The notes under the pieces: generated by a model
Told to the model about the DNA's origin: nothing
Database searches by the model: none
Seen by the model: only the letters and a program-made list of their open reading frames with translations
Translations under genes and position numbers: made by a program
Part shown: in pieces, positions 6,783 to 57,235 of the stretch
Layout: every line of letters starts with the position of its first letter
Numbering within the stretch: position 1 is the first letter of the stretch
Assembly: GCA_949130485.1 (NCBI GenBank)
Contig: OX422183.1
Span: 8,212,636-8,276,635 of the forward strand
Direction: 5' to 3'
DNA from: Agelas oroides
Lineage: Eukaryota; Porifera; Demospongiae; Agelasida; Agelasidae
DNA: 64,000 nt

Positions 6783-6899
6783 AGGTTCATCACTTACTCT
6801 TTATGAATACCTAAGACATAGTGTAAAGTGGGGGAGCTCTAACACCAACCATATGCAGACATCACTGTCCCTATTTTTGCTTGAATGCAGGTGGACAAA

Positions 6900-24890: not shown

Positions 24891-25029
24891 CTGTCCAGGA
24901 TGAAGGACGAATGTGACTTCTTTACTGGTATTTCAAAAGTTGTCATTCTTGGATATTGAGCTCAGTGAATGAACAAGCTTTTGAACACCTTATCATATCA
25001 CAGTAATAATCATACTTACTCCCCTAGAA

Positions 25030-27625: not shown

Positions 27626-27666
<41 letters not shown>
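27626..27666. repeat. (TA)n microsatellite
   Basis: About 20 TA units directly next to the right arm of the palindromic element and on the 3' side of the minus-strand LINE that follows. Confidence 0.95.
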
Positions 27667-27669
<3 letters not shown>

Positions 27670-27922
27670 GATAGGGTTAAATATTATATGAGAGTTACTA
27701 TTAATAAGTACACAAGTAATAAATTTCGTCAATAAGTCCTCTGTTCTCTTGTGGAAATAGCCGTACATCTCGTATAAAATTTGAGCACAATTTATCAGCA
27801 TCAGTGTAGGTTCTCCGGTATCGATTGTAATTAAAAGCATTAAAGCCAAAGGTGGTGTATGATAATTGAGGTGCTTCTGTGAAGATATCACGAATTAAAG
27901 GAATTCCTGTGGCTCTTGCTTT

Positions 27923-28796: not shown

Positions 28797-28900
28797 CCAA
28801 ACACATTAGAGCCATTAAAACAGTAGCAACTGATGACATTTTTAATTAGGCCGGTGCACATGTCAGCTGACATGCCAGGTTTAAAGCCAAATTGAAGAGG

Positions 28901-30665: not shown

Positions 30666-31710
30666 GACGAGCTACAGGAGGGCCAGAAGTTGTACCCATA
30701 GACTCAGCATCAGAAAGATCAACATCAGAGTTGTAGGAGTTATCAGCTGCCTGTGGTTGGGAGGGTTGGTGTGAAGTCTCAATAATGCGACAATTAGCCC
30801 TTTGAGGATGATCGGCCCTGAGAAAGAGCCTCTTATAAGTAGAGAATCCTTTGAGGTTTCTACATTTGGATAAAAGCAACCTCTTATCCCAATCACTGTC
30901 TAGAGTGATGAGTATGGGTCTAGGTCTAGTAGGAGCTGAATCATTGCCAGGGGGTTTACGCCGTCCAAGACGGATTGCATTACGGACATTGACCTTCTTA
31001 CCAATAAGATACTCTGATATCTCATCAATGGCTGATTTAGTCTCCATCAGGGATACTTCAGGTAAGTTAAAAGAATGATCAATTCAATAACTTGTGACCC
31101 TGGGTAGCCCCAGCCTTCTGTGTGGAAGAACTATGATGATGTCCAGCAGTGGAAGCCTCAGAGCTTGACGGTGCACTAGTTGAAGCTAATGAAGAGAGAG
31201 TTTTAATGCACTCAGAGAGGGACTCAAGTTGGATCTGAATGTTATTGGCAAGATCATCTGCAGACTTGTGTCAGCTGGTGGTAAAGAGAACTTTTCTGAA
31301 AGTTGTGAAACCACAGAAGTCAGGCAGTCAATGCTGGAAGTGTTTTCTGAAAGCTTTTTTGTAATCGGATCAGGAACGACAGGAGGAATTGAGAGAAGAT
31401 CTGTGGCTTCTACAAATATATCTGGAAGCTTGCTGGCATTATCAAGAGTGTCAAAAGCAACAATAATATCACCAAGAATGGCATCAGAAACTGAACGCTT
31501 GTCAGAATCTCTTCTGTTTTTAAATGAGAGACCAAGTTCCTCCTTGCAATGCTGCCAGAGAGATTTGTGAGCATCGACTAGAAGCGAGGAGTCAACAACA
31601 GAGAGAAGAGCATTGCGCAGACCACTTACATCACCTCTCAACCTGTAAGCTTTGATAAAAGCAAGCAGAGGGTTTGTCAGTAACGATAACAGAGGGATCC
31701 TTGTCGACAC
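30655..31710 (-). pseudogene. LINE B ORF1 protein, two fragments
   Basis: 31,186-31,710 (174 codons) and 30,655-31,047 (130 codons) are in the same frame but separated by stops. The second has VRNAIRLGRR...RPRPILITLDSDWDKRLLLSKC, typical of the nucleic-acid-binding domain of LINE ORF1 proteins. The first is acidic/Ser-rich and otherwise unrecognised. Confidence 0.7.
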
Positions 31711-32279
31711 TGCCTATTGCTCACTATGGCATTAAGGAGTCTTCGGAAGGCCTCTGTGAACAGCTGTGAGTTCTGTATACTCCTCCATTGTGAATAGGGG
31801 CAGGAGATTGAGATCGAGAGGATGAATGGATTGGTGACAGATCTCTAGCATTATCTGCAGAGATAGTTTCCTAATTGAGTGTTTCCATGATAAATAGAGC
31901 GTCTCCAGTTTTTGCTTTTTTCCTATATAGACTACCATAATATACCGTACGTTTCCATGTGTTTTCAGAAAGATGGTATGACTCAAGGCTGTTCAGTTGC
32001 CGCTTCATCGTTGGCGGTGACTCACTACAAGGACAACTGGTGAACTCTCTAGTGCCTGAAGCGATTTATTTACGCACGTATTTACGCGCATCCTTTCATC
32101 GCAGCGGCGTAAACCGCTTACGCATGCACGAGTTCCGCGCTGGTCCTCCATAAACAAACTCGCATAGCTGCAAGCACTGACCAGACTCGTTTGGAAAGCG
32201 GTGATTCTCAATAGCATCGAAGCTAGTGGACCACTTTCAAACGGTAGAGCACTTAAAATGTATAGTTAAGCGGTGTGTA

Positions 32280-32345
32280 TTTTGGTGGCCAAAAGGGGGG
32301 TTCGAGCGAACCCCCTGAAACCCCCCCCCCTGCCTACGGGCCTGT
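32280..32345. repeat. Transposon-end-like sequence at the CAP2 breakpoint
   Basis: GGGGGGTTCGAGCGAACCCCC is a short hairpin followed by a C-run and CTGCCTACGGGCC. It abuts the point near 32,345 where similarity with unit 1 resumes. Confidence 0.45.
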
Positions 32346-32429
32346 ACTTACTCGTGTGTAAGAGTGAGATTAGCTAGCGGGAAGAGTGAGACTAGCTAGT
32401 TACTTGCAACCACAACAATGTGCACTTAC

Positions 32430-32968
32430 TTGTGTGTAGTGGCCACACGCGCCGCCAGTTGGTGGAGGGTTACACGTGTTTGTAGCGAAGTCATAGTAGG
32501 GGGATTCTGCATTAGCCCAAGAATCAACGATGAAGGATGTGTAGTTTACTGGAACCCTCTCGCCAAGAAAGATGTTTTCACCGATGAAACTGAAGGAGGG
32601 GGAGCTGACAGTACTACTGTGCCCAAATTGACAATTCAGAGAGTATGCCTGTGCAATCCCAGCAAGCTCTTCATTGTACATCTGCAAGTGAAAAGGCAGA
32701 TTGCAGGAAAACATAAAATCAAAAATTCAGTGAAATGTAGCTTACATCTGACATAAAAGCACGATAGTACATAGATTACATGCAGCTATTAGTGACAACT
32801 CACCATTACTTCCATGTTTGTTGCAGTAGGCATAACTCCCCTACGAACAAAGTTGTGAGCTCGAACAATCTCATCTTTGTCTGCAACAGATATGGCTATC
32901 TGAGTCTGTGCTGCCACTCCGCAAATAAGAGCAGTGAAAAGTACAGCTGCAATGGATTCTTTCAACAT
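32430..32968 (-). pseudogene. CAP-domain protein, copy 2 (truncated to two exons)
   Basis: Exons 32804-32968 (signal peptide MLKESIAAVLFTALICGVAAQ) and 32430-32681 have the same lengths (165 and 252 nt) and intact frames as unit 1. The donor after CGHYTQ is intact (GTAAGT). No match to the exon with VVWHNT/GCGAVRCP/CNFGPG or to the stalk exon exists to the left; that space is filled by unrelated repeats and a LINE. The protein would lack half of the CAP fold, so this is probably a dead fragment unless it splices to something new. Confidence 0.8.
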
Positions 32969-33009
32969 TATGTTAAAGTAACAAGCAAATACAGTGTGTT
33001 CAAAACACA

Positions 33010-36000
33010 TTCAACTTGCTGTTTGAACTGCAAGACACTGGTGCCTCAAATAGTGATAGCATCTTAAGGCCACCTGCTGGAAAAGTTGGAACAGCTCATT
33101 ATCAGCTCCAATGTTATTACAGCAAGATTATATCAAAATAATAGCCTCAACAGATCTCATGCAGTGGTCTTTGATGTGGAGCAGTTGTAATAATGTGTGA
33201 CACAATCCTCCTGGCACTGACTCACTGGAAGTCAAACTGTCCAACCTGGTGAACATTACACTGTGCCACTACCTAATGTGATATAAAAGTGTAGCTGTAC
33301 ACAATTTAGGAAATGGGTATGCACTTGCAGTCCTGGCTCACTGGAAGCTAGGCTTTGGAGACAAAGGGTCAACTAGACATGTAAATAGCTTGTGTGTTGA
33401 AGAGAAACAAACATGACCAATAACTTTTTCTGGAGACAATTCACACTGCTTATTTTGGTGTCAGAGTATGCAGACACAAAATTACTTCAGCAGCAAATGG
33501 CTTGATTCCCAGCAAATATGTAATCAAACCATTTTTGGTCTAGTCCCCTTTTCAACCAATTTTTAATGGCAAATTGGTGCAGTTACAAGCTACTCAATTA
33601 GACCAGTTTAGTCGACCTTATAGGTTATTCAATTTGAGCCTTTTAGACTAAAATTAATATAGCACCTTGAAATTTACAATTCTTTGGTACTATCTGATTA
33701 GTAAGTCTGAATCTTGACATCTTGACAAAGTCTCTTTGTACAGAAGGAATAGTTTAGTCAGGTAGACTAACATTGGAAGCTCACAGTCTCAGGTTCAGCT
33801 GCACAAACATGTAAATTAGGTTAAGCAGGTGGTTGAGTTTATGTAGGCCTATTTACAGTAAGGTTACACTTCTTAATTTACACAGCATTATCCTTTGTGG
33901 GTTTCTGTCTAAGTGGGAGACTGTAACCAGAGAGCAGGGCAGAGTAAAAACTACTTCCATCTTGCACCCTACAAAAGACAAACAAAAGATGGCTTGATGT
34001 CAAAAGGAAAGTGATTTTGGCAGATCTGACTATTGTTTACCAGACTGTTAATATAATACCCTAGACTGAGACTTGCAATCAATAGTGCCCATTCTGTGGG
34101 GAAACTGTTGCTGACTTACGTAGCTATATTAAACTGTCATGTGGCTATAGCTTAACCCCACATAGTACAATGTGCTATACTGCAACACAATGTAAAACAA
34201 ACATTGTGGTACATATATGTACTTCTGATAGCCATGCTGCTAGGCTCATGCCTACACGGTGTATACATACTGCTACTTTCCTGACGTGGCTATTGACTGC
34301 AGTTTGGTATGTCTCTGTTACAGTATTATATCTTCCTCTCCCTCCCTCCTCCCTTTCCCTCTTTCCTGATGACAACCGGAGTGTGGTTTCTTCAAGTACA
34401 AGGCACTGGTCAATCCTTTACAAGGATATTAGGAGAAGTAGGAAGGTGAAGCTCTGCAGTCTTTATGTCTAGCCTTGTTCCCAGGCCGCATTATGACAAG
34501 AGTTGTTATCCCCACCTGTCACACTCATTACACCTATTGATAGAGCTTCTGATCGGTTCAAACTGCTTGCTGGGCTTCTGTGAATTGGAATGTGCTAAGT
34601 AGCTTTGTAAAGGCGTGATGAGTACTTGTGGGGAGGAAAAACAGTCCAGTAGTCTATTCCAAAGGAGATGGGGCCCAGAGGCTACAAGAATGCTGTGTCA
34701 CCAGAGCCCTCAGTTCCTCTTTGGGTGTCTGGGTATGAAACTAATTCCACACCCATGCAGCCCCCCCCTTGTCATGTGATGTATTAACTGTCACAATAAA
34801 TTAGGTGAGACCACACGTAAAGGAGCTAACACAAACAAAGAAACCACAGACTCATGCAAAAAAAAAAAAAATGAACAAGGTACCAACTTTAAAGAAATTT
34901 TTCTAAATTTCTGACATTGGGCCTTACATCCTTTTGTGGGCTCCAGGCAACATGCTAGTTGTCGTCTCAGACTGAAACCAACCTGCCTGAGCACCGATTG
35001 CTAATATTGGGTGATTGAAGCAATACTATACATAGCTACTGGATGAAAGGTCTGGAAGAGGCTATGTAGTCTCGTATGTGATCAGGCAGATATAACCAAC
35101 AGAAAATCCGTCTGGTAATATTGCCATGGGGTTTCGACGGAGTTGTTTGAAAGTGCCAATCAAGTTGCCAATTACTACAGAGGTTTTCAGGTTGTTTGTC
35201 AAACTGGACCAACTGTAAGTGCAAAGTCCACTTATTTAAAATAACCACTAATCAGATTTAACACTGTTCACTAAAGCTGCTTGTGTAACAATTTAATTAG
35301 TGGTTAGTTTAAACAAGTGGACTTTGCATATGGCACTTGTGCAGTTTCACTCTGACTTGTGCCCAAGCATTTGTGTGGATGTTAATTGAAGCCATGTAGA
35401 GGCAGAAAGGCAGCTAACTTCCATACATGTTCAGTGCTGACCCGCATTCAAATCCCTGCGTGTGAATGTGTGCAAAAGCCCAAGAAAGGTACACAATGTT
35501 ACCAGTGTTTAATGTTATTGTTGTGTTGTTGTTGTGTTGTTAACGTTGTTGTATTTCCCTTTAATCCCCTCTAAACATTAACACTCACCCTGTCTACCCA
35601 AGCAAGGTGCTATACATGTGATTTTTATTTTTTTTTGATGTTGAACTCCCCTCACAAGTCCAATGTTCTTTTGGCTACTTCCGTGTGTGCGTCCAAGGAT
35701 ACCTGACCCTGTCCCTCCCAGCAAACTGCCTTCATTTAATAACACTGTTCAGAATGTCTAACTCAATCTTAATCCATTCTGATTTCATTTTGTCATTGTA
35801 GCTAAATCAAAATGGTGGCTTTTAGGTTGATTCAATTTAAAGAGGATGCTACTAACTTTTCAGTGTAGTTGTTATCTATTGTAAACAGATTCCTTGTAGG
35901 TGAAAAATTTAATTAAACAACCACTGACACTGGTACAATAAAAGTCTGTAAAAATGTAAACTAAGTTAGAAAGAGCTTGTGTTTGTGGGTGGATTGCCGG

Positions 36001-36015
36001 GGGTAGGTTAGCAAA
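33010..36015. other. Intergenic region between CAP2 and receptor 2
   Basis: Corresponds to 11,430-12,674 of unit 1 but is more than twice as long. Extra sequence lies at about 33,340-33,480, 33,600-33,960 and 34,480-35,640. About 35,640-35,790 resembles 20,160-20,310. Inverted AGTCCACTT/AAGTGGACT segments lie near 35,226 and 35,318. No gene recognised. Confidence 0.5.
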
Positions 36016-39000
36016 TCAGTGCTCTACAGGTTCATATGCCACATTTGCTCTCAGCTCAATCCTCTGCACTGGGTCATATGCTACCTTCTCTCTCGGATTA
36101 TTCTCTGTCCCATTCGTGACATAGTCATACTCTGGATCTTCCTGTTTCCGTTGGTGGGAGGATAACACAGCTTTGAGTTGTGATCGATGCCTGTTGATAC
36201 AGTGGTACAGCAGAACTCCAGCCAGGCCTCCAACAACAAATGCAATGGTACTAGTCATTACTGCTGTAATTTCCAAAGTAGCATCTGTGCTGAGGGTAGC
36301 CGGTGTGACATCTGTGATAGAGGTAGGTAGTCTGATACCTAATGAAATACTAGCAATAGAGTTGCTAATTTGTTATGTCCTCAGTGGCTGAGAGAAATAG
36401 CAACTTCCGCTTTGTGACAGAGGAAATAGTCCAGTTTGTCTATACAGTATGTTCTGCAGTTAGTGGTTGTTACACCCCAAAATGTGAATTAAAGGATCCA
36501 TGTAGAATTAAAGGATCCGCGTAGTATAACTAACATAATATATCATACCCCAAGATGCAAATTAAAGGATCCGCGTAATATAATATAATTACACAGGCCA
36601 GAGGAAGCGTTGAATATCCAATCTGAGTTGATATACCTACGTACCACTGAATTCTAAAGTGTTTCAGCCAAGGAAAACCTGCAGCACTAACTTCTTATGA
36701 GCATCTTGGGGTGCGGTCTATGCTCGAAGATAGAAGTACTACATGAACTGAGGGATGATAGTGGTGTACTGAAATATGTATTGAAACTATATTATCATAA
36801 CATTATCATTCAACTTACATGTAGTTGGAGTTGAAAAAGATACTGACACCACAGATACATTCACTGGAATTGCATGAAGAGTCTTGTTTATGGTTTGTTT
36901 AAACACAGCGACAGTGTAGTCGCCACTTTGTTCTTGATGAAAACATCTCACTTCTGATCTTGGAATTTTATAACTCATAGTAGACTGCAGTTCTTGAGAA
37001 TGACGTAGGACTATAACACATCCCCTTGACACACCATCATCAGGACAGATAACACAGATCTGGTCATCAGTCGTATTGATGCTTGCACTAGACCCTGAAT
37101 TCTCTGTGATAAAAGAATGATAGTTTGTACCTACTCATATACATATGCATCATATTTCAACAAAAAGCTACAGTACAAACTATACTACAACTGGAGCTCC
37201 AGTAACCGTGAGCAGTTGCTGTTGGAGCTTCCTATTAAGTATTTTTTGCTGTAGAAAGAATTGTGTTGTTGGGTTAAATTTGAATACACATAGACTGGTA
37301 ATAGCTGCTAACTGCACTAAATGGAACACTAGCGACAGTATGGGTGCGGTATAAATAGAGCTATGTTGAAATGTTTACACAAACTACAGCTGAAGCCATC
37401 ATTTGTTGTTGCTTTTTTTTTCAAATGTTGTGTATTCTGTGGATTGGAGATCGACTCAAAGGAAGATGTTATATACTGCATTAATACTTATCATGTAGTG
37501 TGTTATATGTGATGATCAAGAAATTACCTCTTACTGGCTCCAAACCTCCATCAGTAACAGTGATATTGTGTGGAGCTATTGCTGCTTGTTCAGACAGGAG
37601 ACCATTGTATTCACCATCAAACACAAGAATAGTGTAGTTGCCTCTGGGCACTCCATATATGGTAATGTTAGCAGTAGGAGCATGTCTGTTGTCTCTGGCT
37701 GCATAGGCAAATATCTCAGTTTGTGTTGTATTCCATGGGTGAAGGACCACCAGGCATCCAAGAGCTTGAGAGTTTACAGCAAATGTGCAAATGACATTCA
37801 CTACTCCTGGAGAGTTAGTGTTGACCAGAGCTGTTTTGATGTCAAATGTACCTTTGGAAAACAAAGAAACGATCAGTCGCATAATCGTGTCTTTAAAAGT
37901 TGCCATTACAACTTAACAGATAGAACAATCCCAGTTGTTTGCCCCTTCGTGACAATGCAATATGATACTTATAGAAATACTCTTATTGTATTTTGAGTAT
38001 TGTTCATTAGTTGTACATGAATACCCAATGTACTACCATAAGGTCCACCAATGAATGGTACCATACTCAAATCTCCGAGCCTTAGGACACTCCTGTCTCC
38101 TTCCCCCACTTCCATGGTTAGGGTATAGTTGTGATTGAACTGAAGTGTGCAATCAGTCACGTGGACAACCAGATTAGAGATGCCAGTTCCTTCAACACCA
38201 CCCAAAGAAGTGCTTCCAGTCATGTTGGTAGCAAAGACTTGGCCATTGCAAATATCCACAGAACTCTACGTACGAACATATATTACAGGTAAGTGCAAAT
38301 TAATAGCAGTGTTCTAGATGTCATGTATAGATCCAGGCCAGGAGACACTGCTTACCAAAAACAACAGCTTCACTTTGATTTCCACGGTTGAGATGAATTC
38401 TACCTGCATACCAACAGCATCAGGAGCTGGTTCTATGTATGGGTTGAGTAGACCATAACATCATATGGCCAGTTACTAAAATGATGGAAGAATGTCATTT
38501 GGTGGTAAACATGGGATTAATGATACTTACTTGGATGAAAGGTTCCATTGACAGATGTCATAGTCCCATTCCCAACTTGGTTAACTGCAAATATTCGGAA
38601 CTGAAACAAGTCACATGGGCTACGGTTGGGTGCAGTGAAGTAGAACTGTGGCTCATACACACTGCAGTTAGTGGTGAGTGGAGTCCTCCCCTGGCTGATG
38701 TTGTAGACCTCCACACAGTACCAGAGGTCAGGGTCCACTCCAGTGATGTCCAGGGAGAAGGGAGGGATCCAGGTAATGAGGATGGATGACCACTGGGAGT
38801 GTGCTGTAAGGTTTCCCACTACAGCTAGAAGACCTATATAGGGGGATAGCTTTAAAGGAATGGTTATACCTTATGTGGATCCTAACTAACAAAGGCAACT
38901 GCAGAAGGGATGTGTCTCATGTAATAATTATATGTTGTCCATGTGGTATCTGAAAACTGCATAGGCTACTTTTAAAAATCTCGCGTCCTGTGTACATCAA

Positions 39001-39784
39001 ATGGTGGCTTGTAAGAGGTAATTTTATTATTATGTGACGGTTACAACTGCTTTGTCAGGCATCAGTTATTTCATTGCATCCTACCTAGATTATTAAACAG
39101 GTCATCTGACTCATGATGATCAAGGGTGAGGATTGCACAAACATGTAATGTCTATTCACAATGCATAACATACCTTGAACTCTAAGAACAGCTGAGTCAC
39201 TAGATTCATTATGAGGGATAGGATCATGAATGGTCACTTCACACACCACAACTGTGTTATTGTACTCCACTGAAGCTGGAACTTTCAAGAAGGATGTCCT
39301 TCCATTAGAGCTAACTGTTATGTATGGTGTGCTCAGCTCTCTCAACGGTGACCCATTAACTCTCCAGTCAATTGCGCCTGCAGTAACATTGCAGTTGAAG
39401 GTAGCAGTAGATCCTAGTGTGGCATTGACTGATGAGGGAGTGCTAACAAATGCTGCAATATAAAAACAACATCAGTAACACAGCTGCATTTATTGAAACC
39501 CCATGATAGTAATTGCCATCTTCAGACTGATCTCTTTTATGCTTAGTTCAGATAGCTAGAGTTTGGCTATCTAGACTGTCATAAACTATAGCCTTCCACC
39601 ACTTGCAGTATGCAAAAACTGGACATGCAGTGGGAAGGCCTGGGAATGAGGCTATGGATGGACCCATATTGATCATGGCACAGTACATTTGAACAGCTAC
39701 TTGAAATAGTAATGCAGCTCACTCACCAGCTTGAGTGGTCATAATGCCACCCAACAGGATCATAGTGGCAATGAGAAGTTCCAT
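36016..39784 (-). CDS. Ig/FN3 single-pass receptor with two ITIM-like motifs, copy 2 (intact)
   Basis: Eight exons: 39727-39784, 39174-39452, 38531-38833, 38356-38432, 38049-38265, 37528-37851, 36819-37103, 36016-36338. They total 1,866 nt, an exact multiple of three, giving 621 residues. Order: signal peptide 1-19; Ig-like 21-112 (FNCNVTAG...VVVCEVTIH); FN3 114-213 (ITWIPPF, WYCVEVYNI); an FN3-like region to 312; two related Cys domains (VICTF...LGCLVVLHP and QICVICP...RGCVIVL); TM helix (STIAFVVGGLAGVLLYHC); cytoplasmic tail. The tail has YDYV (Tyr585/587), VAYDPV (Tyr602) and VAYEPV (Tyr616); the last two fit the ITIM pattern [SIVL]xYxx[IVL]. Many NxS/T sites. Likely a cell-surface recognition receptor signalling through SH2 phosphatases or adaptors; that is inference. 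Confidence 0.88.
36480..36590. repeat. Short repeats AATTAAAGGATCC in receptor 2 intron
   Basis: Three spaced copies of AATTAAAGGATCC(C/A)(G/T)G(C/T)GTA at about 36,487, 36,507 and 36,552, with ACACCCCAAAATG/CATACCCCAAGATG before two of them. Local duplication of unknown origin, not present in unit 1. Confidence 0.6.
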
Positions 39785-44002: not shown

Positions 44003-47000
44003 TTATGAGTACAAAGACAAGGTAGACAACCAAATTCTGTGGGTTACAAACCTTCTACAAGCTGGACAGTGATCAACACGTTGAGCACAATCCCAACAAA
44101 ACCGATGTCCACACAGGAAAGCGGTATTCCTTGGTTCCGTTAAGCATATTGAACAAAGTGGTACATCTCCTTTTTGTGCAGTTGGTACCGTAAATTGTTG
44201 AGCTATATATTGGGACAAGCACCAAAGTCAGAAAATACTCTACGACAACAATATCCAGCTGTACAAAACAAAAAGACTCACGCAGTCCTTCCTTGTGTTC
44301 AATAGGACTTTGGCACTCAAAACACACCTTAAGTCTCATAGCACATCCTGCAGAAAAAGGATACTTACCATAACCTGACCAAGGTCAAAAACATTGCGTA
44401 ACTTTTAGCTGTGTATATCATATAAACATGCATGGGCAAGGTATAAACAGAAGTGGGGTATTGATAATGTGACTTGTAAGCAACATGTTGAAATCAATCA
44501 CATTATAGATGTGGCATTCATCTGCATATCATATCCCATTCATGTTTGAAAATAAATTTGGTTCTTCAGTTCTCTAAAAACATTTGTAGAACAGCAAATG
44601 TTTTGAAGTCAGGTTTATTTTTCAGGTTTCGCAGATTAAAGATTTTTCCTCCAAAAGTTTGTCAGTTGTCAATGATGAAAGTGTGCATATCGTGCAACCA
44701 AATACATATATACCTTGCTCTGTGCCACTACTTTCATGAGTTGGGCTGTACCATTCAAGAGTAAGTGCTTGAATGGGAGGCCTACCAACATGAAATATGC
44801 CACTATCCATTGTTACTTGTGAAAATGTGGTGATATGCATGCAAAACAGGAATGAGCATGAAATATTGTGGAAACTGGTTTGTGAAGATATTCTGCCAAG
44901 AACGTCAGCCAGCAAAAAAATTTGTTATAAAAAATACAGTAGAAAGCATGGCAGCTATTGCTTCCAGTCAAGGCAGACCTCCAATCAAAGCAACCTAGGA
45001 GGGGGGGAGAGGATTCTGTGCATGAAAAGTGTTAGAGTAGGCACAACAAAACCATCCTCTGTAAACATTGTTGCACATGCAGTGCCTGTGAAACCAGACA
45101 TGGATTTGGACAGGAGATCTGCCTTGCCTGTGAAGTTGTTACTGTTTGCTAGTCCAAAAAGGTATATAGAGTCTGTCATTGGAACCACTAATCACCTTTC
45201 AGTTTGAAAACATATAGGTGCAACGATTCTATTGCAGATTTTGAATCAAATGCACGAAAATGACGGGTACTTCATTCGTCAAACAGCTTGTGAATCCATA
45301 TAGTGTTACATACTAGCTAGGGAAAAACTATATAACAATGCTACATACTACTAGCAAGCCAATACGTATACACACCACTAGAGCTAGCTAGCCAGTAACA
45401 TGCTACAAGCAACTATAGTTATGGCTCGCTCATCCAGAAAACTACAGCATAGTTGACCAGAAAACAAAAGGTGAACTATGATTTTTGCTCCATTAAAGTT
45501 ATCACTGCTTGTTTCCACTGTTTTATCAGCCAGATTTGTGTCACTGATGGACACTGCAAATAGATTCAATGCCAAGTGGTTGCTTCTCTCCACTTGATAG
45601 GGGTGATGTTGGGCTGACAATTACATTAGCAATGTGATGCTATATAGCCATTCTACTATGCAGAGACTGACAAGGCTAGCTAATGTGTCTTAGTCTAGGC
45701 ACTTAGCTACTCCAACTGAGTATAGTTTAGAGATACACCATACTGCCACTTTGTTATCAGTAACTATGACCATTATGGTGACAGTCACATGACTATTTCT
45801 GTAAGATATGTATGAGCCAGCATGATTGTCTCTACACATTATCATTTAACAGCACAGTTTGCCATATATTAACCCTTTAACTACGAATGATGACTATAGT
45901 CATTGAAATTCGGCTACATGTTATCAGTTGGTGCAATCCATTTTCAAGATAGGTCCTGCGCTAGCAGAAAGAGTGGGACGAGGGGAGGTGGGTGGGTGTC
46001 ACCCGGAGGGTGACAGTGCATGGCGGCTGTTGCAGCTGGCTGTAGAAAAGCCCTGGTCATTAATGTCAGGGGGGCCATTGTTCTGCTTTCTTGCACAAAC
46101 AGGCCTAGAAAACACTCCTTTCGCCTTGCCTTGTAGGGGCTCCATTTCTGACATTTCAGGCAGCTTTCAGTCCAGAGGAGCGCTCTCTGGTCGGAGGGCA
46201 CTGACTATCGAATGCTCGCTAATGAGTGGGTGTGGTCAAGGCCATGAACTTGTAAAGGAGATGTGGAAGAAGCTGTGGCTCAAGTCTCCAGGGCTAACTC
46301 ACAGCAGAAGACTTAGTGGAAATACAGGTGGAAAAAGGTGTGAATAGTCTAAACAAGACCTCTAGAAAATAATATTCAGTACTTTAAGTTAAGGGCTAAA
46401 AGATAGCTGGAGTCGACTGAGGCCTCTAGCTTGGCTGTTATAAGCAGACTTGCTTCCAATCCTCTGCTGTGGGTCCAGTGGCTCAGTGGTAAGAGTGTCT
46501 GACTAGTAATCAGAAGGTCCTAGGTTCGATTCCCAGGTGGATTTTTTTTCTTTCCAAAGCTTAAATCAAGTTTGTTCCTTCCATACACAGAACTTCCTGT
46601 AGTACATTTTCAACATTTTTAAGTGGAAGCTGTAACGAGTATGTTAATCAGTTGTGTATATAATCACCTGTCATTCTGTCATCACGTGACCCTCCTCGTG
46701 TACTCCCGGTCCTCTCTGATTGTACCCACTGATCGTTGTTGAACTCTTGTCCCTGTGACGAACGTCAGGCGCATAGATAGCAAGCCACAACACGTTACAT
46801 GGTGTCAGAGGTGGGATACCGCGTCCTCTGAGCGGTGATACAAGTCGATCACGATAACGATGGCGACGGGAAACTTCGCACTCCCGCCCCCAGTACCGCT
46901 CGATAGCCACAGCGACCAGGCCGGGGAGAAGTGGAAACGCTTCAAACGGGCCTGGGATAGCTACGTCCTCGCTACAGGACTGAACGAAAAGGACGAAGGC

Positions 47001-50000
47001 GTACAAGTCGCGACATTGTTGACGGTGATCGGAGAAGAGGCGCGGGAGGTGTACTCTACCTTTACGGGTTGGGCGGCACCTGGCGACGACAAGAAAATAG
47101 ATCCAGTGTTAGAGAAGTTCGGACAGTACTGTGAGCCTCCAAAGAACATTCCGTTTGAGCGATACAGATTCAACCGTCGCTGCCAGGAGGCAGGAGAGAA
47201 CTACGACCACTACCGCACAGCTCTCAGGAAACTCGCCGGAAACTGCGATTTTGGAACGATTACACCGGACGAAATCCTGCGTGACCGCCTCGTGTTCGGT
47301 ATTCGCGACGGGAAGACCAGAGAGCGTTTGTTGAGAGAACCGGCGCTGACGCTGAAGCGAACAGACGAGATATGCCGTTCTGCGGAAAGTGCAGTCACGC
47401 AACTAAGACTCGTGGATGATGGTCAGGGAACAGCTGTTAACGCCTTGAACACACCCCCTAAGTTGGCGCAGGGCTGCACCAACTGCGGCAGACGGCACGA
47501 CACTCAGCGGCGAGAGCTGTGCCCGGCCTTTGGCAAGATATGCCGCGGAAGTGCAAGAAACGAAACCACTTTGCAGCGAAGTGTCGGAGCAGGAACCAGA
47601 GAGCCCTCGTCCTGGACGAGACCGAGACACGGGATCCACCTGACGATGACGAGACATTGACACTCTCACTACCAGTCCATTGCCTGGATGACTCGCAATT
47701 CATTACACTCCGTGTCAGGTCAGGCAGCTACATCAGATTTCAGGTGGATACGGGGGCGCAATGTAATGTCCTACCAGTAGACACATACAAGAAGGCCACG
47801 GGCGACAAGACCCTCCGCAATGTCACTCACACCAATACTCGAGTCACAGCCTATGGGGGAACCACACTGCCGGTTGTTGGACGTGTGGTTTGGAGGGAAG
47901 CATCAGAGTACCGTCTGGACTGTCGGCTCGTAGACTCTCAAAAGATCCGTCCACTGCTCGGGCGCAAGGCATGCCTGGGCATGGAAGTCATCAAATACCT
48001 CGACAACGATGCCATCCACAAGCCAAAGACTGGTAACGCCCCTGTCCATAGTCTCGAACCAGCTGGACCTGTATTCATCGAACAGTTGCAAAGAGAGCAC
48101 CCTGAAGTCTTTGGGGCAGGAGTGGGTCGACTGGAGGGAAAGTACAGGATCGTACTAGATAACAGCATTCAACCAGTGCAGCACCCTCCACGCCGAGTTC
48201 CAGTCCCCTTGCGTGATGCTCTAAAGTGTACACTAGACGACCTTGTGCAGCAGGATATTATAGCACCTGTCCAGCAGCGATGGGTTAGCTCCATGGTGGT
48301 CGTGCCGAAGAAGGATGGCAAGCTGCGTATATGCCTCGACCCACGTGACTTAAACAAGGCCATCCGCGGGAACACTACCCACTCCCCACCATAGAGGACA
48401 TTGCGACACGCCTCCACGGTGCCAAAGTCTTCACGGTCCTCGACGTCCGCAAGGGTTTCTGGCACGTAGAGTTGGAAGAGGACTCCTCCTTCCTGACCAC
48501 TTTCAACACCCCTTTTGGGCGGTACAGGTGGAAGAGAATGCCCTTCGGCATCTGCTCTGCGCCTGAAGTGTTCCAGCGGAGGATCCACCAACTCATCGAA
48601 GGTTTACAGGGAGTGGAGGTCGTGGTGGATGACTTTGTTGTGGTTGGGTTTGGGGACACGCTGGAAGATGCTGTAAGAGACCACGACCATAACCTGGAGG
48701 CGTTCCTTCAGAGATGTGCAGCCAGAGGTATCAGACTGAACAGCAACAAAGTGCAGCTGAGAAGGCAGGAGGTGCCATTCATTGGGCATGTAGCAATGGA
48801 CAAAGGCCTCCAGGCAGACCCCACCAAAGTGGATGCAATCACACGAATGCCACCGCCCACAGATGTCGCTGGGGTCCAACGACTCCTGGGAATGGCCCAG
48901 TACTTGGCAAAGTTTCTTCCCCACCTCGCAGACATAACAAAACCACTGAGAGAGCTCACTCACAAGGACGTCGAATGGGTCTGGGACAAACCACAAGAGG
49001 ATGCGTTTCAGAAGCTACAGAAAGCCATTACAAACACCCCTGTCCTGAGGTATTACAACCTCGAGGAAGAAGCCACAATACAATGCGATGCATCACGATT
49101 GGGACTAGGGGCCGCTTTGATGCAGAATGGACAACCTGTGGCTTATGCGTCCAGCGCCATGACGGAGGCAGAAATCCAGATAGAAAAAGAACTCCTTGCT
49201 ATTGTGTTTGCATGTAACAGATTTGATATTTACATTTATGGCAGGGACAGGGTGAAAGTGGAGTCGGACCACCAGCCATTAGAAGCAATCATGAAGAAGC
49301 CGCTCAACGACGCCCCAAAACGTCTCCAACGTATGCTCCTGCAACTGCAAAAATACTCACTCGACGTCACCTACAAGAAGGGCAAGCTCATGTATCTGAC
49401 CGACACTCTAAGCCGTGCATACTTACCTGACGAGGTCACTGTAGCGGAAGTAAAGTAGCTGGAATCGATCGACCACACTGAGTCATTGGCTGTGGCCCCA
49501 GAAGACCTAGAGCGCCTCAAGCTGGCGGCATCACAAGATGTGGCAATGCAGGAACTACGGCGCATCATTCAAGAAGGCTGGCCAACACACAAAGCCGAAG
49601 TGCCAGATGCTGTTCGTCCGTACTTCGAGTTCCGAGACCAGATGACCACACAAGGCAGGCTAGTGTTCAAGGGCCAAGTCGTGGTAATTCCAGCAGCACT
49701 GAGAGCGGAGATGATGGCCAAGTGCCATGCCACGCACATTGGGATCGAAGGATGTGTCAGGCGTGCTCGTGAGTCAATGTATTGGCCACGCATGTCATCC
49801 GATCTCAAAGATTACATATCCAGATGTGATGTGTGCCTAGCTTATCAAAGTGCACCACATAAGGAAACCCTCATGCAGCATGAAATCATGGCCCGACCAT
49901 GGGCAAAAGTGTGTGCTGATCTATGCGACTTTAGGGGACGGACGCTCTTGGTCGTCTGCGACTATTTCAGTGGCTTCATTGAGGTGGAGCGTTTACACAC

Positions 50001-53000
50001 AACAACCGCTACAGCAGTTAGCAGGGCTCTGAAGGCCCTTTTTGCCAGATATGGTGTCTCCGACGTGCTAGTGACCGACAATGGGCCACAATTTGCCTCA
50101 GCTGAGTTTGTGTCTTTTGCCAAGAGATGGGGTTTCCAGCATGTTACATCGTCTCCTCACTACCCACAATCTAATGGTAGGGCGGAAAATGCAGTAAAAA
50201 CAGTCAAACGACTACTCACTAAATGCCAGGAGACAAGACAGTCGGAGTTCCAGGCTCCACTAGACTGGAACAACACACCGACGGAGGGGGTGGGGTCAAG
50301 TCCGGCACGACGATTCCTCGGCAGGAGATGTCGAACACTACTCCCCATGACAGAATCGATGTTGAAGCCAGCATACGATACTACAACAGATGCCCAGGCA
50401 TTGAAGGGCAAACGAGCCAAACAACCCTACTACTACGATCGCCAAGCTCGTGATCTTCCATAGCAGTGGGAGAGACTGTGAGACTGCGACTACCTGGGAA
50501 AAAGCAGTGGACGTCAGGGATATGTACTGGCACAGAGGGCCCACGAAGTTACACAGTTCAAGCGGGATGTACCGTGTATCGGCGGAACAGACGACATCTA
50601 ATCAAGGGTGGAGAACAAACACACCAGGAAGAACCCTCAGAGCCAAGTCAGCTAGATGATCCTGATTTGCCGCCATCACCACCTGCACCCGACCCGGCAC
50701 CACCAAACTTGCCAGAACCACAGCCACCATCGGCCCCCCCACAGGACAAAACTCCGCAACTATGTCGATCAACGAGACAGAGAACGACACCCGACTGGAT
50801 TACAACATATGTGCCATCGTAAGAGACTCACACCAGGAACAGCAAGTTACTCTACTAATGCATTTATCATTGGTACCTTGGTGTGTGTGTGTGTGTTCAT
50901 CTTTATATATCCTCATAGTGCGCATGTTTTACAAAAGGGGAGATGTAACGAGTATGTTAATCAGTTGTGTATATAATCGCCTGTCATTCCGTCATCACAT
51001 GACCCTCCTCGTGTACTCCCGGTCCTTTCTGATTGTACCCACTGATCGTTGTTGAACTCTTGTCCCTGTGACGAACGTCAGGCGCATAGACAGCAAGCCA
51101 CAACACGTTACAGAAGCAATATTATGTAGGGTATTCCATACAAGATTCTAATTATTAATGTTGGAAGTAACAATACCTGGGCAGTATTTGTGGTCACATG
51201 GCCTCAGGGTAACTGAGCTTGCCTCCTCTTTACACAATGTACACATCTCTACCAGCTTTGAAATGGTTTTAACTGGGTTCTGAAATACAATCATTAGCAG
51301 AATTTCATAATCATGAATGCACATCACACTCCATGAAAAATATCATCAAGTCAAATTGCTGGGCCACAGTATAAGTAATGGACAGTGTCATGATATACCT
51401 AGCCATGGGAATGAAGGCTTTGTTTACCAATAAGCCTTCCTTCACAATCTACACCATCCTTACTGTTCATAGTGATTCCCTGCTTGCATGATGTCACATA
51501 CACCATACGCCAGTATAAATGAAATTTGTTTTAAATGCTGGGCAACACGTGTGTGTGTGAGAGTACTCTTGATGGCAGTCTTATGTCAATTGACACTATG
51601 TAAGAATCGGGTTTTGTCTAAATCCCGGAGGGTCATAGTTTTTTTGACATGGAATGACCATTCTAATAATTCATACATCCCTGGGCACGGGAAACATATA
51701 CTGTAGAGAATGTATCAGATTCATGACGAAATTTATAACCACCCACATTTTGTAAAAACTTGACAGCATTATTGTAATTAAATACCCTGCAGATTGGACA
51801 CCTCTTGGCTCTTTGTGCACACTTGTTACACATGGCAGCATGGCCACAAGGTTCAATTTGGACATCAACAGAATTGTCACATAGATAGCATACATCAGGA
51901 TCAGAGTCTGTAGTGTGATAAAAATCGTTTTTCAGTGAGTAGCAAACTGGCAGCCTATGAAGTGAGCACATAGTCTAATTAGCTAGTGTACTTTTTAGAG
52001 ATATCTGCCAAGAGAAGCTTAAACAGTGATGGATGGCATGAGAATGGGGTTGTCTCCTTAGCTGACATGTTAACTATGAGACAGCTATCAGGGGAAAGTG
52101 CTTGTGAGAGTATGCTGAGATAATTGAACCCCGCAAGACTTTCTGTCAACTTTTTTAACTGCAGAGTTGTACCATGCCATTGGCAATGATGAGAAATGCC
52201 AGTAGTTGGTCTTGCTGACAGAAAATTTAGGTAGCTAGCTATATCTGTAATAACCACTGAATTCTATTCTCTAGAAGTCTTTTGTAAGCTATAGGAACTC
52301 CCTTTTTGACCATACTTTGACTTTTGCTAGGAATTAGCACTGGAAACTAGACCCAAAGGTACTTCCAGGCATATTCTACAGGTTCATGACCTTGACCACA
52401 CCCACCATTAGCAAACTTTCAATTGTCGGGAAAAGCTGCCTACAGTGCAAGAAATGGAGCCTCTACAAAGTGAGAAGAGCACTTTCTATGCCGATTTGTG
52501 TACCAAGGAAGAGAAATGACCCACCCAGTGTTGACCAAAGCCTTTCTATAACCACCACCCACTAACACTTGGTCAAACAAAGTACTCACTCACCTTGTAT
52601 ACATAATTACCAGAATGCTGTTAGGGGAGTTCTTTTTTTCCCCAATGTTTAATTACACAAATACAAGCCTCAGGTACTAGCTATGTAACTAAGTAGCTAG
52701 CTATTCAAATTAGTATTGGAATGACAATGACAATATTTGGAGGGGTAGCACTTGCCTGTAGCAGATGAAGTAGTTGGGGTAGGTGATGCAGACTGTTTAA
52801 AAGACTTAGAGCTCGTTTTGAAAGGCAAGCCCTTACCACCATCTTGTATCTAAGCATGAAGGGAAAAGAATGCAATACATACATGAAGAGGTAAGTATGG
52901 ATCGCTCAGGTGTACCATGGTGCACAATCTTACTTACATGCACAAGTCCAATGCTGAATTCAAAGTCAATAGCGCAAAACATCTCCAAAACACATTGTGC

Positions 53001-55277
53001 CATGTGACATCATGAAGCGTCACTAGCAAGTAGAATCTTTAGCTATTCAAACACACACAACCACTCAAAGCCATATGTACATAAGGCAAACAGGCAAAGC
53101 ATATTGCTGAACCCATGCACTGTAGTCATGCTTTTCTATGGCCTGAGCCACAACTAGGTTTCACACTATTTTGCTGAGATGTTACAACAGCATATAGAGT
53201 AGTTTGGTTCAGAGACTCCACACTATTAAAAATTACAACTTGTGACTGAGCTGACAATAATATTACACTCAAATTTGTATTATGGTAGCATACCCTTAAT
53301 GTATGTAGCTCTCTCTGCAGCCTGCTGATAGCAGCATCCTTCTCTTGAACTTGGCCCAGTTTAGCTTCCACCTCTGCTTGTAGCCTTTCCCTGTTACCCT
53401 AACAATAAACCACAAGTCAAATCTCCGTTAATTCATGCATGCATATATCTTCCTCCAGTTTCTTACCCTCATTGTTTGTAGCTCTTTCTGTTGCTTGTTG
53501 ATTTTAACATCCTTCTCTTGGAGTTGGCCCATTCTAGTCTCCATCTCTGCCTGCAGCCTTCCTTTGTCCACCTAACAACCAACAAACATAATTAATTCAT
53601 GATTGTGTATACATACTAGTTTCTTACTCGCAGTGTTTGCAACTCTCTCTGTTGTTGAAGAGCCCTCTCACGGAGTTCTGTACTTTGTCGCTGGAGTTGG
53701 GTATCCTTCTGTTGGAGTTGGTCATTCATCAGCTGTGCATAGGAGAATACCACAATATAGCTAATGAGTGTTAGCTTCATTCCCAGGCTCTCCCTAGTGT
53801 ATTGTGTATAGTCTTCCTATTTATCATTATACACATACATATTATGCACCCTACACATGTTCCCTACCTGCAGTTGTTGCACTTGTTGCTGCAGACGTCC
53901 AATCTCTGTGTCCTTTTCCCTGAGTACTCTCACCTTCTCCATATCCAAGTTAACCTTAACAATCTGGCCGTATGGCCCCTCAATCTGAGCCCTCACCGCC
54001 TTCAATTGTTGCAGTAGTTCTTCAGTAGAGGGTCGTTGAGCTGGAGTGTTGTGGAGACACTGGTGTACGAGCTGGGCAAGAGGGTGGTCCTCTCCCAGCT
54101 GGCCACGGAGCTGCTGGATGTAGCCCCTCCGACGCTCCACCTCAGACCGGCCCAAGAGGTGATCTGGATTCTGAGGGTCTGGATATGTGTGGGGGAGAAG
54201 GGAGCCTGGGAACACCTGGGAGAGGGAAAGGTACTATAACAATACGCCTAACAATAAATTTTATCACATGCCCTATCACTGCAATCTCAAGTATGTAAGA
54301 GTACAACAAAAGGTAGTACTACAATTCCTTATAAGGTAATACACCAAATCCCTTTGGTCAACCAGTTACATACCTGGGTTAACAGATTGAGAGTATGTGT
54401 ACCTAACTATACTACTGCGTTCGTGCATGAACACACTACTATATATAGTTATCACTACCTGTAGTTAATCCACTTTCTGACCTGTGTGAGTGTGAAGAGA
54501 GTGAGGTGACCAAATGAGAAGATGTCCAGGCGGGGACCATACCTTGAACCCTCCTCAAATGCCTCAGGGGGCATATAGACCATGGTACCAGGTAGATGGG
54601 TGAGGGTCCTGGCCAACTGGCCTGGTCGCAGGTTCACAATGCGAGCATTACCCAGGTCACTGATCTTGGCCACCAGTGATGATGTAAGGAGTACATTCCG
54701 AGCAGACAAATCTCTGTGCACAACAGGAGGGTTGCGTGTGTGCAGATAGAGCAGCCCCTGTGCCACATCTACTAGCAGTGATTGTTTGAGGACAAGGGGG
54801 AGGCCAGGTGCACCCTCCAGCAGCTCGTCCAGGCTGCTATCCAGTCGTTCCATCACCAACACTGGCAGTGCTGACCCTTCTAGGAAACACAGCCCCAGAA
54901 ACTGCACGATGTGTGGGTGCCGCAACTCCGCCATCACCTGCAGGAGGCCGTCATGCCAGTGAGGAAAGATATGTGCTGTAGCCTAGCTAGCTTAATGAAA
55001 CAAAACTGAAAAATATGAATCTCCTTTCTAGGTACTAGATGGGTATTACCCGACACTCTTCGAGGTATTTGCGCTCGATGTTGGCCACGCCGGCGTTGTC
55101 CCTCTCTAGGAGCGCATCGTGTAGCCGCTTGCCCGCGCACACCAGCCCGTTCACATCCAGCTCCTCCACGCTGCCGTAAGAGCCCACCCCCAGCTGCTTG
55201 CCCATGGGGCGAACATCGGGAAGTACGAACCGCTGCAGCTCGAGGTTGTATTGGAAAGCTTGTCTTCTGCCAGCCAT
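44003..55277 (-). CDS. Protein kinase with coiled coil and three C-terminal RING fingers
   Basis: Eleven exons: 55050-55277, 54482-54937, 53868-54215, 53628-53732, 53467-53571, 53294-53398, 52756-52849, 51786-51907, 51177-51279, 44282-44347, 44003-44202. They sum to 1,932 nt, giving 643 residues with every junction in phase. Kinase: P-loop GVGSYGSV (30-37), Lys50 in VCAGK, HRDLSARN (150-157), DLG 170-172 (in place of DFG), YMPPEA. These residues suggest an active kinase of tyrosine-kinase-like type. Coiled coil about 320-449. RING A CYLC...CGHAAMCNKC...CPIC; RING B CTLC...CDHKYCPGC...CFEC, split by an intron; RING C CSICLTEPRN...CGHRFCWDC...CPAC ending at the C-terminus. Triple C-terminal RINGs recall Mind bomb ligases. 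Likely a ubiquitin E3 controlled by its kinase; untested. One intron (after 52756) has a GC donor. Confidence 0.85.
44348..46470. other. Part of intron 9 of the kinase/RING gene; no exon recognised
   Basis: Long open frames on both strands at 44,797-45,207 show no recognisable domain. About 45,870-46,400 has weak inverted ends (TTAACCCTTTAACTA and TAAGTTAAGGGCTAA) and may be a degenerate MITE. Phase continuity between exons 9 and 10 argues against an extra exon here. Confidence 0.45.
46471..46543 (+). tRNA. tRNA-Thr(AGT)-like sequence
   Basis: A-box GTGGCTCAGTGGTAAGAG, perfect anticodon stem TCTGA/TCAGA around loop CTAGTAA (anticodon AGT), B-box GGTTCGATTCC, and a T8 run just after. The acceptor stem pairs over six bases only, with G-U pairs, and the T stem has a mismatch. 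It could be a real tRNA-Thr or a tRNA-derived SINE or pseudogene; tRNAscan scoring would decide. It lies about 90 bp before the gypsy LTR element. Confidence 0.5.
46631..46799 (+). repeat. 5' LTR
   Basis: 169 bp, TG...CA ends. It differs from the 3' LTR at five positions, all transitions (about 3%). Confidence 0.95.
46860..47660 (+). pseudogene. Gypsy gag
   Basis: Starts MATGNFALPPPVPLDSHSDQ. It has a capsid-like region (WKRFKRAWDSYVLATGL, CQEAGENYDHYRTALRKLA, ILRDRLVFGIRD) typical of invertebrate gypsy gag. The frame leaves the zinc knuckle halfway at about 47,540; the rest of the knuckle is in the protease/RT frame. That point is a frameshift, either mutational or a programmed -1 site. Confidence 0.85.
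47519..48394 (+). pseudogene. Gypsy zinc knuckle, protease and start of RT
   Basis: Opens with the second half of the zinc knuckle (CKKRNHFAAKC). It then has an aspartic protease with FQVDTGAQCNVLP and LLGRKACLGM, then the RT fingers (QRWVSSMVVVPKKDGKLRIC). It ends at a stop at about 48,392 caused by a frame break just after DPRDLNKAI. Confidence 0.9.
48395..49458 (+). pseudogene. Gypsy RT palm and RNase H
   Basis: Contains FTVLDVRKGFWHVEL, FGRYRWKRMPFGICSAPE, and the catalytic VVDDFVVVG (a V-x-DD box in place of the common YxDD). RNase H follows: IQCDASRLGLGAAL, EKELLAIVFACNRF, VESDHQPLEAI. It ends at an in-frame TAG (49,456-49,458); the same frame continues directly into the integrase. Confidence 0.92.
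49459..50463 (+). pseudogene. Gypsy integrase
   Basis: HHCC zinc domain (CHATHIGIEGC...CDVCLAYQS) and a catalytic core with D (CADLCDF), D (VTDNGPQF) and E (NGRAENAV). A C-terminal tail continues after another frame break at about 50,455-50,466 into 50,466-50,822, which ends Pro-rich (PPSPPAPDPAPPN). Confidence 0.92.
50944..51112 (+). repeat. 3' LTR
   Basis: 169 bp, same ends as the 5' LTR, preceded by the polypurine tract at 50,933-50,943 and followed by GAAGC. Confidence 0.95.
51908..52755. other. Intron 7 of the kinase/RING gene
   Basis: About 850 bp between the linker exon and RING A. Begins with the GC donor at 52,754-52,755 and ends CACACTACAG. No repeat or gene recognised. Confidence 0.6.
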
Positions 55278-55674
55278 CGATCGCCTTTGTATGTTAGTCT
55301 CGCGGAGCCAGACTCTCACACGAAAAGCGGGAGAGAGTCTGGTGACACTTGCATGATGTTTAAGGTAATTAAACAAGGTTAATCAACATTGAATACACAC
55401 GTGCGCATCGCCACACCTACTGTTCCATTTATAGCCCATATTACGCAATTGCAGCACGTTTTTCCGCCCCGAGCTGCCTGCTGCTCTGTTGCAAGTTTCA
55501 AAGCTGCTCTGCCCGATCTATTAAGGAAGCAACTGTTTCAAAATCCCTCTTACAATGGCAACTACTGACTACTCCCGATCACAACGAACGATCCGCCCAC
55601 CGTGACCGATCACTCAGGTGATCCTATGGCGTGTTATTAGTGTCAAAATTCGAACGCTTATACAAAATTTTGAT

Positions 55675-55825
55675 GAGGTCGGTCACTTACTCTATGAGGT
55701 CGGTCAATTACTCTATGAGGTCGGTCACTCACTTTATGAGGTCGGTCAATTACTCTATGAGGTCGGTCACTCACTTTATGAGGTCGGTCAATTACTCTAT
55801 GAGGTCGGTCAGTTAATGAGGTGGA
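55675..55825. repeat. 21-bp minisatellite upstream of the kinase gene
   Basis: About seven units of GAGGTCGGTCANTNACTNTAT. Two unit types alternate (CAATTACTCTAT and CACTCACTTTAT), giving a 42-bp higher-order repeat. It lies about 400 bp upstream of the kinase start codon, so it could affect its promoter. Confidence 0.93.
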
Positions 55826-55966
55826 CCATACGTCGCTAAACAAACTGAGGTAGCTAAAAATTTCACAATCGATGGTCTGGGACCGGAACGAGACAACCCA
55901 GTATTGCTGGTCGTCATGGCCATGTGGGCATGTGTCTCATCACGTGGTCAGACCTCCCCCCGCCCC

Positions 55967-56369
55967 AGGCACACCTCCCGTATCGAGTCGCAGAGATGGC
56001 ATCTTCAGTGAGCTCAGAGTTGTTAGAAGCAATCGTCAGAGTGTGTCAAAGGGTGCAGCGTCTAGTAGCTTCTTATGAGGAAGGCAGAGAACCAGATAAA
56101 CTGCTTTGAGCCCTGTTGAGTTCTTCAAGCAAAGTCAAACTCATACCAACTGATTCCAGAACGTTGTTGCTGCAAGCATTGATGGCCAGCAAAATACGAT
56201 GCAGTCTGTCGACGTGATAAACAAGACAGTCCAGTTTATCTGGTTCTCTGCCTTCCTCATAAGAAGCTACTAGACGCTGCACCCTTTGACACACTCTGAC
56301 GATTGCTTCTAACAACTCTGAGCTCACTGAAGATGCCATCTCTGCGACTCGGTACGGGAGGTGTGCCTG
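55967..56369. repeat. Inverted duplication, arms about 136 bp
   Basis: 55,967-56,102 and 56,233-56,369 are reverse complements with about one mismatch (CCCGTATCGAG against CCCGTACCGAG). The spacer is about 130 bp. Each arm carries the same short coding segment, one on each strand. Confidence 0.9.
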
Positions 56370-56396
56370 AATCTCGTTATGTACAGACTTGCTCAT
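56073..56396 (-). CDS. Hypothetical 107-residue protein (fragment)
   Basis: The open frame contains MASSVSSELLEAIVRVCQRV, then HVDRLHRILLAINACSNN and SVGMSLTLLEELNR. It is mostly helical in appearance with no known domain that I can name. It could be the N-terminal part of a larger gene or of a captured transposon protein. The last codons run into the other arm of the inverted duplication, so the true 3' end is lost or spliced. An in-frame Met before ASSVSS is the likelier start. Low certainty that it is a functional gene. Confidence 0.4.
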   Translation of the reverse strand: MSKSVHNEIQAHLPYRVAEMASSVSSELLEAIVRVCQRVQRLVASYEEGREPDKLDCLVYHVDRLHRILLAINACSNNVLESVGMSLTLLEELNRAQSSLSGSLPSS

Positions 56397-56399
56397 GAG

Positions 56400-57235
56400 A
56401 AAAAAAATTACGGGTTTACCCCAAATTTAGATTTTAACCCTCTTCCTACGAGATTTAACTTAACCGAATTTCTGCCTACTAACATGCATTCAGAGAGTAT
56501 GCAGCACATCAAGGGAGAAGAGAACAAGTAAGCATGGTATCAGTATAGTACTAAAACTAGTCAGTATTGAATGTCAGAAATGGGATGCATTTCTGGCAGC
56601 TGTGTACATGTAGCTAGGGGGAAACAGACTGATATTTCAGAACAGCCTCCAGCAGCACTGAAAAAAGCTTTTCTATTTCTATCCATGAGCCTTGACTGGT
56701 CAACACTCTTGCGTTTGGTGCACAATTAGTAAACCTGCTGTGCAATGCTATGGTGTGCATTTGTGCACTAGGTTGCTGTACACTGCAATCTAACTATGCA
56801 CCAAGGGTCAAACATTGTTGAAATTGTCGACGCTGTGTGTTGAAATCGTCGACGCTGTGTGTTGAAATCAGACTTAAAAACGAAGTATTTTATGTCTGTT
56901 CAATGTGTTAATGTTCCTATGCTAGAGGCAAAAATTTATTCTCAGACTGATTTTCAACTCAGACTTCAAAGGTCTAAGCATGGTAGCAACTGTGGCAGAT
57001 CATCAGAGCAACAAGTCATGCTGGGGCTGGGATAGTTTTCGACACCCAAAGCTATTGTAGTACGCGGGGAAAATCACGTCCGAAAATACATTGTAAAACA
57101 ACGCGTAACTTCTTTGCCGCCTCTTCCGAAAAGGAAAGACTAAAATACTTACGCCTTCCACTGGCCTTGCCTATGAACCCTTACCATGCTGCAGCAGTTG
57201 CCATATTTGGCTAGCAATGTGATAAAATACAATCA
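56400..57235. other. No gene recognised
   Basis: A short direct repeat (GAAAT(T/C)GTCGACGCTGTGTGTT) occurs twice at about 56,820-56,866. Otherwise unremarkable flank between the inverted duplication and a LINE. Confidence 0.5.

Follow-up and report, generated by a model that had tools for sequence, protein, structure and literature searches.

The window, by which we mean the whole 64,000-nt stretch of Agelas oroides DNA that was analysed (C1:8,212,636-8,276,635 in an assembly of 259 Mb and 141 contigs), carries on its minus strand a predicted gene of 11 exons (Table 1). The exons sum to 1,932 nt and their phases close, exactly as had been claimed in a preliminary description of this DNA, and they encode 643 amino acids and a stop codon. 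The splice donors are GT in nine of the ten introns and GC after exon 7, where use of a GT at 52,836 as the donor instead would preserve the frame; the weights used in our splice-site scores are approximate. Exon 6 ends, and the linker exon 7 starts, in phase 0, and ordinary splicing of the two would therefore give a single 643-aa protein. Polyadenylation-type hexamers (AATAAA or ATTAAA) are present in introns 9 and 7 (ATTAAA at 52653), while neither was found in the 1 kb following the stop codon, so that transcripts might terminate early.

Pfam recognises a single uninterrupted kinase stretch (residues 26-298, 5e-31), in which the catalytic residues are present: K50, E74 (judged by eye to be the helix-C Glu), D152 of the HRD motif and D170 of the DLG motif. 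These features agree with the view, expressed earlier, that the kinase domain is apparently active. Equally, the three RINGs reported at the C-terminus were recovered by zf-C3HC4_3 in three stretches (4.6e-25); when exon 11 was modelled by itself with AlphaFold, the result was of low quality (pLDDT 48.6) and was set aside. The coiled coil placed between these domains was retained in part: the 35-aa exon units have the appearance of a coil by eye, but the Pfam coil matches are weak and fall below the cut-off. Exons 5 and 6 (edges included) are 76% alike over 120 nt and represent visible duplicates.

Table 1. Exons, domains and other features of the kinase-RING locus (positions in the window)
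Feature	Position	Strand	Description
Exon 1	55277-55050	(-)	kinase domain part (exons 1-3)
Exon 2	54937-54482	(-)	kinase domain part (exons 1-3)
Exon 3	54215-53868	(-)	end of kinase domain, then start of coil region
Exon 4	53732-53628	(-)	coil, 105 nt = 35 aa
Exon 5	53571-53467	(-)	coil, 105 nt = 35 aa
Exon 6	53398-53294	(-)	coil, 105 nt = 35 aa
Exon 7	52849-52756	(-)	linker; 94 nt; GC-AG donor
Exon 8	51907-51786	(-)	RING1 (C3HC4), CPICR; 122 nt
Exon 9	51279-51177	(-)	first half of RING2; 103 nt
Exon 10	44347-44282	(-)	second half of RING2, CFEC; 66 nt
Exon 11	44202-44003	(-)	RING3 and stop codon
Predicted TKL-like kinase domain	54006..55277	(-)	exons 1-3, aa 26-298; Pfam and PDB relatives
Putative coiled-coil region	53294..54005	(-)	exons 4-6 plus the end of exon 3; by eye
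Predicted chimera breakpoint interval	53150..53289	(-)	intron 6, 140 nt
Ty3/gypsy-type LTR retroelement	46631..51112	(+), opposite strand	in intron 9, 4.5 kb

Several other features surround this gene. Immediately upstream of it there is an array of 21-nt tandem repeats (55649-55837), and further on an inverted repeat (55966-56369) with 138-nt arms that are 99% complementary, overlapping an ORF without a Pfam match. This ORF (56073-56426) was rejected as a candidate upstream exon on two grounds, its overlap with the inverted repeat and the failure of its translation to match any Pfam entry up to E = 1. The regions 204-16530 and 21105-39471 contain minus-strand receptor-like ORFs, apparently forming two similar sets (ORF list, by eye); one of them matches a secretin-type 7TM domain (3.7e-8), and one fn3 and one I-set match lie below the cut-off.

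Origin of the RING half

DNA matches to another contig (C8) run in the same order and on the same strand from position 43,902, just past the stop codon, to position 53,150, within intron 6. They span exons 7-11 together with parts of the introns, and are mostly 73-85% identical; the comparison also shows some inverted, repeat-like matches. Exons 7-10 on C8 are identical in length to those of the window (94, 122, 103 and 66 nt), the splice boundaries match, and exon 7 has the same acceptor and the same unusual GC donor on C1 as on C8. In a genome search (E up to 0.1), exon 7 was found on these two contigs only. The C8 sequence upstream of these exons encodes ankyrin repeats (best match 9.5e-14) and the Mind bomb SH3 repeat, each of whose two parts was matched (5.8e-9 and 3.4e-7). 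A MIB_HERC2 domain (C8:6490456) is found on that strand another 33 kb upstream, and its link to the other pieces is one of strand and order only. As judged from these alignments, the RING tail of the window gene is a diverged copy of the 3' end of the C8 Mind bomb gene. The preliminary description had compared the triple RING with those of Mind bomb ligases, and our results bear this out and go beyond it, to a tail copied from the end of such a gene.

The window protein has a C-terminal RING array of the Mind bomb type, and the closest PDB chain to its RING3 is RING3 of human MIB1 (8v0d, 8.1e-8). RING2, with CFEC replacing CPxC, is probably structural and not E2-binding. On C8, the last readable open stretch before exon 7 (L066:2924-3106), taken by eye as the end of the ankyrin region and having no Pfam ankyrin match, ends in phase 2 by its single evident donor, whereas exon 7 starts in phase 0; one intervening exon is therefore absent from our reading of C8. 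No match to the four ankyrin and two SH3 pieces of C8 was found in the window (E up to 0.1), none of the 17 genome matches to MIB_HERC2 is located on C1, and Pfam detected neither ankyrin nor HERC2-like repeats in the window protein.

Other Mind bomb-like sequences also occur in this genome. One gene, on C17 and presumably MIB1-like, comprises RING pieces and MIB_HERC2. Another contig contains a tandem array of Mind bomb-like genes (C13:2301108-2470292, about 170 kb), in which eight MIB_HERC2 and eight RING1-like exons alternate strictly on the plus strand.

Intron 9 and its retroelement

Intron 9 is 6.8 kb long and splits RING2 between two zinc ligands. When exons 9 and 10 are joined, a PDB match of RING2 to BIRC7 (4e-5) crosses the junction. 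The join proposed earlier (51,177 to 44,347) thus rebuilds a RING2 and has matching exons on C8; the splice is very likely real, since C8 exons 7-10 share lengths and sites with those of the window. Mispairing of exons 9 and 10 was rejected, as the C8 copy carries both of them, 1.5 kb apart.

The retroelement inserted in this intron encodes reverse transcriptase and RNase H domains, is bounded by 169-nt LTRs with 5 differences between them, and is flanked by a 5-nt target-site duplication (GCTTC). Between two flanking matches the window measures 5.3 kb vs 0.42 kb on C8, although the empty-site alignment is itself weak. The intron is long, then, because the element landed there, later than the exon 9-10 splice arose. 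A tRNA-Thr gene (AGT) is located beside the element, also within intron 9 and on the plus strand (46471-46545).

The kinase half and its family

The PDB relatives of the kinase domain (best 60 of 2095 matches) are headed by an EGFR entry (1.7e-23), followed by TNNI3K (1.1e-21) and IRAK4 (6e-21); TAK1 and RIPK2 rank lower, among plant kinases and tyrosine kinases such as ITK and TYK2. This similarity ranking suggests a TKL-like kinase domain. Outside the sponge genome, a collection of prokaryotic contigs gave a single distant kinase match (28% identity) and a collection of viral contigs gave none.

Within the genome, the kinase-coil arrangement is that of a large family, with 44 exon-2-type copies among 141 matches. 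This set was defined by exon-2-type matches, excluding single-exon kinases and separate matches to exon 1 or exon 3. Since 117 out of 625 candidates were scored in the underlying search, the true family is larger. The commonest tail is Kelch: 26 of the 44 copies have one on their own strand at a distance of no more than 12 kb; this count was made with 77 of the 139 Kelch matches, and the other 62, tested against the 18 Kelch-less copies (the window gene included), added none. RINGs lie near only one copy, the window gene itself (21 of 23 RING matches used). The top exon-2 match is a copy on C22 (C22:317,246-321,919), with amino acid identities of 84.6%, 96% and 83% in exons 1, 2 and 3, respectively, and a Kelch ORF 3 kb downstream. 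The window contains no match to this C22 Kelch, and no Kelch lies within 12 kb downstream of the window kinase.

The join

Homology to the kinase family stops at about 53,289 (furthest 53288) and homology to the C8 Mind bomb gene at 53,150, an end also given by a second, separate search. A 271-base query spanning the join matched itself and C8 only, in a search that skips very common words. The window holds none of the C22 Kelch, C8 ankyrin or C8 SH3 pieces, which implies that each parent was cut at the join. The locus is, as read from the homology on its two sides, a chimera of two traceable parents, with exons 1-6 derived from the kinase-coil family and exons 7-11 from Mind bomb.

Selection on the two halves

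A comparison of the RING half with C8, over a stretch that stops before the altered C-terminus described below, gave dS 0.181, dN 0.105 and dN/dS 0.58 (bootstrap 0.34-1.04); with this upper bound the ratio is compatible with neutrality. Of the 11 differences in RING1, eight fall on the window side, two on the C8 side and one is unassigned (seven of the eight C13 copies were used for polarisation, the eighth differing in length). By these estimates the RING half is fast-changing. The chimera is apparently 'young', a description that follows from dS 0.18 to C8 and from the single genome examined. All 24 zinc ligands of the RINGs are kept, and there is no stop or frame break over the 11 exons. 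In simulations that take the C8 sequence as the ancestor and ignore indels, the probability that neutral drift keeps the 24 ligands and introduces no stop was 0.0007 (K=0.09) or 0.019 (K=0.05).

The kinase dN/dS between the window and the C22 copy is 0.153, and comparisons with ten single copies from the same genome gave 0.14-0.19, the lowest dS among the ten being 0.31. On the window branch, polarised with C22 and six other copies as references, the 342 codons compared carry 19 nonsynonymous changes and 32 synonymous ones (dN/dS 0.20); the ratio is somewhat higher than that of the C22 branch (0.199 vs 0.129), and some of the window branch may predate the join. Signs of constraint are thus visible in both halves, in the kinase as a dN/dS of 0.20 and in the RINGs as the full set of zinc ligands.

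The residues following RING3 are altered relative to C8 through a 5-nt length difference, so that the window protein ends in THRIWLSTLSLYS vs THRIRLFQ on C8 and KKIILFD on C17. In both MIB1 and MIB2 it is the last RING that is important for ligase activity (PMC6713736, PMC7815719, PMC5345843), and for this reason the altered C-terminus, with its lost Phe, may weaken the ligase.

Chimeric gene or chance neighbours

We consider it probable that this locus is a chimeric gene that arose when stretches of genomic DNA were duplicated and joined, i.e. by exon shuffling, and that it does not belong to an old family of kinase-E3 proteins. Its head, a kinase with a coiled coil originating from the kinase-coil-Kelch family, would have been joined within an intron to a duplicated Mind bomb piece consisting of the linker exon, RING1-3 and the 3' end. 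In the encoded protein, the coil would dimerise the chain, the TKL-like kinase would phosphorylate itself and its partners, and RING3 (perhaps also RING1) would recruit E2, enabling the chimeric enzyme to ubiquitylate itself or its kinase partners. Action on Notch ligands, as in Mind bomb, would not be expected, because the chimeric enzyme lacks those parts for substrate binding in Mind bomb for which we tested. The joined transcript, the kinase and ligase activities and the targets are what we infer from the predicted exons and domains, and it is plausible that phosphorylation and ubiquitylation are combined in one chain.

The two halves might instead be remnants of a decaying chimera, a truncated kinase-coil gene and Mind bomb fragments lying in frame by chance and yielding no single protein. 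The truncation of both parents at the join, the RING-half dN/dS with its upper bound of 1.04, the altered C-terminus and the excess of RING1 changes on the window side are all in line with decay, which we nevertheless consider unlikely in view of 11 exons without a stop or frame break, the conserved splice sites and zinc ligands of the RING half, and the low dN/dS on the window branch of the kinase. Conservation of the exon 7 acceptor and GC donor between C1 and C8 also argues against the presence of two working genes, one encoding kinase and coil and terminating in intron 6 or 7, the other a small three-RING gene that starts near 51,970. The end of exon 6 points the same way, as it is followed by a donor, and read-through would add approximately 50 residues without a recognised domain (by eye). 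Such a division is improbable in our opinion, even though the unspliced frame offers an in-frame ATG ahead of exon 8 (ORF 51974-51663), ATTAAA is available in intron 7, and the 18 of 44 kinase-coil copies that are Kelch-less within 12 kb indicate that a tail may be dispensable.

Both halves belong to repeated families, which could in principle have led to an assembly misjoin of a kinase copy with a Mind bomb copy. We regard this as highly improbable: the window copies are distinct from their relatives (see the C8 identities and the lowest kinase dS given above), the query spanning the join, searched with very common words skipped, revealed no shared sequence that could mislead an assembler, and the surrounding contig is 32.7 Mb long, with the locus 8.2 Mb from its start.

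Possible other tails of the kinase-coil head

The kinase-coil head might be a promiscuous 5' module that acquires new tails in this lineage via its phase-0 coil exons, mostly Kelch, in the case described here the RINGs of Mind bomb, and perhaps further ones. We put this forward tentatively and think it rather doubtful. The downstream DNA of three further Kelch-less copies was examined, and two of them precede other signalling domains on the same strand. One (C10:146990) is followed by DUSP and ubiquitin-like domains (C10:148001-155000), which we take to be USP4/15-like; it is possible that this copy and the downstream domains form a second chimera or that they are mere neighbours. The other (C10:8704589) is followed by an SH2 domain and a tyrosine kinase domain whose HRD motif reads HRN (C10:8705001-8712000), and a Kelch ORF is located 21.5 kb beyond it. 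No recognised tail was found in the DNA downstream of the third copy (C10:2451893). If the C10 pairs are joined transcripts too, this genome is assembling chimeric enzymes for signalling around a single kinase head.

Comparison with known systems

The predicted window protein resembles the C22 kinase-coil-Kelch gene in its kinase exons 1-3 and coil pieces, which have the same layout, and differs from kinase-coil-Kelch genes in having three RINGs in place of the Kelch propeller. With Mind bomb (MIB1 and MIB2) it shares the linker and the C-terminal RINGs; unlike Mind bomb, the window gene has no ankyrin, SH3 or MIB_HERC2 matches and has a kinase and a coil instead. The position of the coil also differs: in MIB1 the coil lies between RING2 and RING3, whereas in the window protein it would precede RING1.

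We know of no human TKL with a RING. In plants, KEEP ON GOING (KEG) has a single RING, located at the N-terminus. This Arabidopsis protein is reported to have RING and kinase in one chain, as predicted here, with kinase activity and self-ubiquitination linked, and also ankyrin and HERC2-like repeats, which Pfam did not find in the window protein (PMC5385374). We infer independent origins for KEG and the window chimera. The preliminary description knew of no kinase with this tail; our search of the open-access literature likewise turned up no description of a kinase carrying RINGs of the Mind bomb type, but KEG is a precedent for the combination of kinase and RING. Kinase-RING chains and triple Mind bomb RINGs are, accordingly, already known, while their union was not found in that literature.

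A functional connection between the two kinds of domain exists in human cells, where MIB2 binds the TKL kinase RIPK1 and the ligase activity of MIB2 restrains the kinase activity of RIPK1 (PMC7815719). There, the two proteins are separate chains, whereas in the window gene the E3 tail and a TKL-like kinase are predicted in one. At its present age the chimera still allows both parents to be recognised, together with portions of the introns and a breakpoint interval of 140 nt, so that exon shuffling as the source of a protein combining kinase and E3 can be put to a direct test.
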